Shown one piece after another: positions 27,981 to 28,418 of a stretch of DNA of 35,335 nt. The stretch comes from Anaerolineae bacterium (GTDB lineage Bacteria > Chloroflexota > Anaerolineae > Aggregatilineales > Ch27). Position numbers and translations under genes: made by a program. A model generated the notes under the pieces. It saw only the letters and a list, made by a program, of their open reading frames with translations. It ran no database searches and was not told the origin of the DNA. Every line of letters starts with the position of its first letter. Positions within the stretch are counted from its first letter, which is position 1. Location of the stretch: NCBI GenBank assembly GCA_013178165.1, contig JABLXG010000033.1:1-35335 (forward strand), read 5' to 3'.

Positions 27981-28418
27981 TCAGCCGCGGTTGGAGAGGG
28001 CAAGCGCGGCCTCGCGCAATGCGTCCCGGTTAGGAATGCCGCTGTGCTGTTGGATCAGATTACCCTGTCCATCGAACAGCAAAAAGACCGGCACAGCACG
28101 CACACCATAGCGCCGGGCAAGCTCACGCCCCGGCCCATTCAGAATATCCAGCCGCAACACTTCCACTTTTCCGCGCAGGTCGGCTTCTAGCCCATCCACG
28201 ATAGGCTTGGCGATCAGGCACTGCGTTCAAAGATTGGAATAGAGTTCCACGATCACCGGCTGACCGGCGGAAATTCGTGCCTCCAGAGCATCGATAGTCT
28301 CAATGGGCGAAGGGCGTGTGCCCAGGACAAGCTGGGCCAGGCCGAACAGGATCAGCAGGGCCAGCAGGAAGGCCAGATTAGGGTGACGGTGAATGAATCG
28401 GCGCAGACGAGCCAGCAT
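27981..28418 (-). CDS. candidate selenoprotein: membrane-anchored thioredoxin-like protein (UxxC)
   Basis: Read through one in-frame TGA (complement of 28227-28229, codon 64), this frame gives 145 residues. A basic start and one membrane helix (about residues 14-34) lead to a thioredoxin-like domain. It has PVIVELYSNL, then the TGA, then TQCLIAKPIVDGLEADL, RRYGVRAVPVFLLFDGQGN with the cis-proline, and a final helix. Thioredoxins have CxxC exactly where U-T-Q-C stands here, so TGA occupies the first redox cysteine. Codons on both sides stay in one frame. A SECIS-like hairpin follows the TGA at 28189-28207. It would reduce disulfides or peroxides outside the membrane. The alternatives are a nonsense mutation or sequencing error. 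It ends the hutI-SDR-trx run; selA/B/C/D are not in the window. Confidence 0.78.
28189..28207 (-). other. SECIS-like stem-loop downstream of the in-frame UGA
   Basis: On the minus strand AGCCTATC pairs with GATGGGCT (eight pairs, one G-U) around a GTG loop at 28197-28199. The loop begins 28 bases after the UGA. Published bacterial SECIS rules ask for a stem-loop with the apical loop 16-37 bases from UGA and a G in the first two loop bases; both are met. The element lies within the coding frame, as in other bacteria. Confidence 0.6.

Follow-up and report, generated by a model that had tools for sequence, protein, structure and literature searches.

A candidate family of membrane-anchored, thioredoxin-like selenoproteins in Chloroflexota with a covarying SECIS-like hairpin downstream of the UGA codon

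The minus strand of the window (the whole stretch of 35,335 nucleotides that was analysed) carries a gene of 145 codons that translates as MLARLRRF...VELYSNL*TQCLIAKP...SNRG* and is interrupted only by a TGA at codon 64 (Table 1). The strand, frame and coordinates proposed for it in an earlier sequence-only reading proved right, as did the split expected from an ordinary gene caller, given that standard ORF calling returned two products of 63 aa (28227-28418) and 72 aa (27981-28199). Ordinary annotation halves such genes. The gene is preceded, at 70 nt, by a short-chain dehydrogenase/reductase (SDR) gene of the same orientation, and a DNA methylase gene faces it; its neighbours, encoding the SDR, an amidohydrolase and the DNA methylase, offer no clue to its function.

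Table 1 Features of the candidate selenoprotein gene, with positions numbered on the window.
Feature	Position	Strand	Details and basis
Candidate selenoprotein gene, membrane-anchored thioredoxin-like	27981-28418	-	145 codons and terminator TGA; translation, Pfam, orthologues
In-frame TGA, codon 64, predicted to be read as Sec; first position of UxxC (U-T-Q-C)	28227-28229	-	codons of homologues
Cys67, second redox residue (TGC)	28218-28220	-	Cys in every homologue
SECIS-like hairpin AGCCUAUC-GUG-GAUGGGCU	28189-28207	-	stem of 8 bp, G at the start of the triloop, +22 to +40 relative to the U of UGA; covariation, codon shuffles
Proline of the cis-Pro loop, P110	28089-28091	-	invariant in four-sequence alignment
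Predicted transmembrane helix, residues 13-33	28320-28382	-	AlphaFold2 helix; family charge count
Terminator TGA of the gene	27981-27983	-	translation

The read-through protein matched the Pfam Thioredoxin family (PF00085) over residues 46-136 with 38.1 bits (cut-off 23.5), and the thioredoxin domain therefore spans the TGA. AlphaFold2, supplied with four own and related sequences, predicted a full thioredoxin fold (pLDDT 85.9) in which residue 64 is placed just ahead of a helix formed by residues 65-80, and Foldseek retrieved thioredoxins throughout, with 571 PDB matches at E <= 0.001. A cis-proline is a standard feature of thioredoxins, and both this residue (P110, from the alignment) and the N-terminal helix (residues 13-33, from AlphaFold2) are in frame, as had been supposed. 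Each of the two fragments has its own start codon and stop, as would be expected of two separate short genes of 63 and 72 aa, but the domain crosses the TGA and the homologues with Cys are single uninterrupted proteins; the latter refute the two-gene reading, which is considered extremely improbable.

Comparison of 75 homologous loci codon by codon showed that 55 have TGA at codon 64 and the other 20 a Cys codon, TGC or TGT, with no other codon at this position, while the second redox codon specified Cys in 75/75. Chance is excluded as the origin of the TGA, since all homologues have either TGA or Cys there. The same comparison bears out the earlier placing of the TGA on the first redox position of a U-T-Q-C motif, and provides the alignment with Chloroflexota relatives that had been put forward as a check. 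An orthologue with TGA was present in all five genomes of the family, the other four being 90, 56, 50 and 47% identical, and 105 of the 396 genomes sampled from the class gave a match at E <= 1e-14. Family members were also found in other classes of the phylum, and the TGA recurs in homologues down to approximately 35% identity, in many families of class and phylum.

Relative to the orthologue from the same genus, dN/dS was 0.058/0.53 before the TGA and 0.053/0.56 after it. The segment after the TGA is thus a working part of the protein, being under purifying selection equal to that upstream, which rules out the degenerate downstream part that the sequence-only reading had held to speak against its own proposal. 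When an otherwise intact gene contains one in-frame stop, this usually points to a pseudogene, with the TGA as a nonsense mutation, or to an error in sequencing or assembly, with TGC/TGT misread as TGA. Against this stand the same TGA in 55 homologues from many families of class and phylum, the purifying selection that goes on downstream of it, and the covariation of the hairpin described below. This explanation, too, has a negligible probability, and the recurrence of only TGA or Cys at codon 64 refutes it.

The source assembly (4.19 Mb, 98.6% complete) contains the components for selenocysteine synthesis and insertion, for which a search had also been suggested: a tRNA-Sec (73.6 bits, gathering threshold 47), reported by ARAGORN as tRNA-SeC with anticodon tca, together with selA (545 bits, cut-off 268), selB (353 bits, cut-off 242) and selD (372 bits, cut-off 125). 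As the terminator of the selenoprotein gene is itself a TGA, this codon is not globally reassigned in the host. UGA is the leakiest stop codon, which lends some plausibility to its being decoded as another amino acid such as Trp, by near-cognate suppression or reassignment, or serving as a leaky regulatory stop with low-level read-through. Homologues, however, always substitute Cys and never Trp, and the TGA terminator, the tRNA-Sec and selAB in the genome and a hairpin tied to the TGA forms also argue against such decoding, which is judged very unlikely. Reassignment of the code was rejected on these same observations.

Bacterial SECIS elements are stem-loops that lie shortly after the UGA and carry a G in their small apical loop (PMC1088965), and the hairpin predicted from sequence for the Sec forms has these features. 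Its sequence, CCYRUC-GUN-GAYRGG with minor variations, occupies +24 to +38 relative to the U of the UGA, and it has 6-8 bp and a triloop beginning with G in 52/52 distinct sequences. All six core pairs are present in 45 of these 52 and five pairs in the remaining seven, whereas codon shuffles that preserved the protein (500 sets) contained on average 2.6 complete hairpins and at most 9. The complete hairpin was found in 0/20 Cys forms, which had a mean of 2.65 pairs vs 2.45 in their own shuffles.

Pairing is maintained by compensating codons, with Pro CCC accompanied by Gly GGG (31 cases), Pro CCT by Arg AGG (18) and Pro CCG by Arg CGG (1) and, likewise, Ile ATC by Asp GAT (25) and Val GTC by Asp GAC (18). 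Overall, 94.2% of the cells were paired and changes on both sides numbered 51 vs 22.8 in shuffled sequences, a value reached in 0/500 shuffles; control structures slid along the alignment were paired in <=47%. The hairpin of the window, AGCCUAUC-GUG-GAUGGGCU, has a folding energy of -10.5 kcal/mol in isolation. A 54-nt RNA from the window folded alone was not unusually stable (z 0.76), and its centroid structure, but not its minimum free energy structure, was the hairpin. Folding of the whole 54 nt was uninformative, and it was the hairpin itself and the comparison across sequences that proved decisive. RNAalifold predicted only four of the hairpin's pairs, and no Rfam family matched the window.

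The exchange of TGA and Cys, the Sec machinery, the selection downstream and the covarying hairpin all agree with the selenoprotein interpretation first advanced from the letters of the DNA, and it is therefore highly probable, as deduced from sequence, that the gene encodes a bacterial selenoprotein with UGA64 read as selenocysteine.

A quick tree of the family requires at least eight changes between Sec and Cys, four of them forced by strongly supported branches. Within the class, selA was found in 318/396 genomes; it was present in 45/50 genomes with a Sec form vs 8/20 with a Cys form (Fisher p = 3.6e-5, with related genomes treated as independent), and the nine members of family f53 that were examined are all among the Cys forms lacking selA. 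Five genomes with a Sec form gave no selA match, of which four are MAGs of 67-78% completeness. The fifth (contig G006:C146, locus L055) combines a Sec-form gene with no detected selA in a genome that is 92% complete; either the assembly is incomplete here or the machinery has truly been lost. In genus g64, one locus (L085, genome G271) has a Cys form amid close relatives bearing Sec, so that Sec has probably been lost there; its genome retains selA, and most of its hairpin pairs persist while some are gone, as would fit a recent change from Sec to Cys. The several changes between Sec and Cys, matched by presence or absence of the hairpin, provide a clean natural experiment in which to study the constraint that an RNA signal places on protein sequence, and they also inform on how Sec is lost.

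The orientation of the protein was predicted from the charges flanking the helix. Across the family, the mean number of Lys and Arg residues is 2.4 before the helix and 1.2 after it, with net charges of +1.2 vs -1.6, and this excess on the N-terminal side favours an N-in topology with the thioredoxin domain outside. In some members, however, positive charges after the helix are as many as those before it. Genes for thioredoxin or thioredoxin reductase were not found adjoining the window's own gene. A gene for a cytosolic thioredoxin, in the same orientation, immediately precedes 22 of the 75 loci, and the fetched flanks contain thioredoxin reductase in 10, OsmC in 9 and a CsoR-type metal-sensitive repressor in 13. 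The source genome has one CcdA/DsbD_TM match, on contig C13, near a second Sec-thioredoxin paralogue (L049, see below). Taken together, the neighbourhoods and the CcdA match point to a part in thiol redox reactions on the outer side of the membrane, supplied by the thioredoxin pool.

The adjacency of many relatives to cytosolic thioredoxin and thioredoxin reductase genes, and the members with balanced charges, may be taken to indicate a real selenoprotein that faces the cytosol, or one that acts as oxidant or isomerase. The charge bias of the family as a whole speaks against the cytosolic orientation, and this alternative is given appreciable weight but is thought the less probable one. An extracytoplasmic reductase role, as judged from the sequence data, is considered fairly likely.

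In the mechanism proposed, SelB would bind the putative hairpin (CCYRUC-GUS-GAYRGG core) and bring Sec-tRNA(Sec) to UGA64, with translation ending at the terminal UGA. The single N-terminal helix would anchor the product in the membrane with the thioredoxin domain outside, where the U-x-x-C pair could reduce disulfides of extracytoplasmic substrates. Electrons would most likely come from thioredoxin and thioredoxin reductase, across the membrane via a conduit of the CcdA/DsbD type; of all the steps in this mechanism, those involving the electron donor and the substrate are the least secure.

The source genome contains two paralogues, L040 (G000:C1:290915-291202) and L049 (G000:C13:54564-54842), which are thioredoxin-like with a TGA at the first redox position. 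Their motifs are UPTC and USAC, respectively, and one of the two begins like a lipoprotein. In L040 the TGA is followed, at the spacing seen in the window's gene, by a 6-bp hairpin, CCCAUG-GUU-CAUGGG, and the protein there reads PMVHG in place of PIVDG. As the hairpin is conserved despite the differing residues, some of the conserved motif that follows the active site in the protein probably owes its presence to the RNA.

Thioredoxin-fold selenoproteins with UxxC are known, and a 'Thioredoxin (Trx)' type of PF00085 with UxxC is listed as experimentally verified in the 2026 prokaryotic inventory (PMC13188914; earlier PMC1794560). The Chloroflexota protein resembles these in its thioredoxin domain, the Sec at the first catalytic position, the existence of Cys homologues and the bacterial Sec machinery, and differs from them in its predicted N-terminal membrane anchor, in an active site of the YSNxUxxC type in place of the classical WCGPC and in its wide distribution in one Chloroflexota class. 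It scored 45 bits with the classical thioredoxin equivalog TIGR01068, below the cut-off of 96.8.

Thiol-disulfide reductases of the TlpA/ResA/CcmG type have a single membrane anchor, an outward thioredoxin domain and a CcdA-type electron supply. All of these are predicted for the protein described here; on the other hand, its domain is closest to classical thioredoxin and not to TlpA/AhpC-TSA, and its redox residue is predicted to be Sec. Scores with the models for dsbE (TIGR00385, 16.9 vs a cut-off of 123 bits) and ResA (NF002854, 13.6 vs a cut-off of 170) were low.

Curated thioredoxin-like selenoproteins comprise SaoT (NF040730), the HUIPC type (NF047660) and Sec.1/Sec.2 (PF13192) (PMC13188914). 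The protein is, like them, a small thioredoxin-like selenoprotein by prediction, but none of their models matched it at E <= 1, and no curated selenoprotein model matched above its cut-off. An earlier report of a membrane-anchored Sec-thioredoxin from Chloroflexota was not found in the main text of open-licence articles, and Chloroflexota are not mentioned in the main text of the 2026 inventory (PMC13188914) or of the other selenoprotein papers searched; a survey of 2006 counted three selenoproteins in Chloroflexi (PMC1794560). Because the equivalog and selenoprotein models missed it and Chloroflexota are absent from these main texts, the protein represents a candidate new family within the known UxxC kind.

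We lean, by a modest measure, towards an undescribed and ancient Chloroflexota family of outward-facing membrane selenothioredoxins. In this family the hairpin, lying within the coding region, would dictate the K-P-I-V-D-G or K-P-V-V-D-R sequence behind the active site, a constraint that would loosen upon the change to Cys; with the lipoprotein-like UxxC paralogues that have a similar hairpin, the family would make up an extracytoplasmic system of thiol reduction based on selenium. With the gene described here, Chloroflexota gain a selenoprotein family that is widespread, well supported and apparently uncurated.

Two further genes with in-frame TGA codons were observed. The selD gene of the source genome (L018:1501-1560, on G000:C32) has one of its own at ...SCAGUASK..., which we take to be the site where known SelD proteins with Sec have UxxK. 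In another genome of the same family (G002), a thioredoxin-like gene (L052:1351-1890) has two TGAs nine bases apart, giving a UPAU motif of the UxxU type, and the hairpin that follows them, CCCAUC-GUG-GAUGGG, is identical to that found elsewhere, so that a single hairpin may serve two Sec codons.
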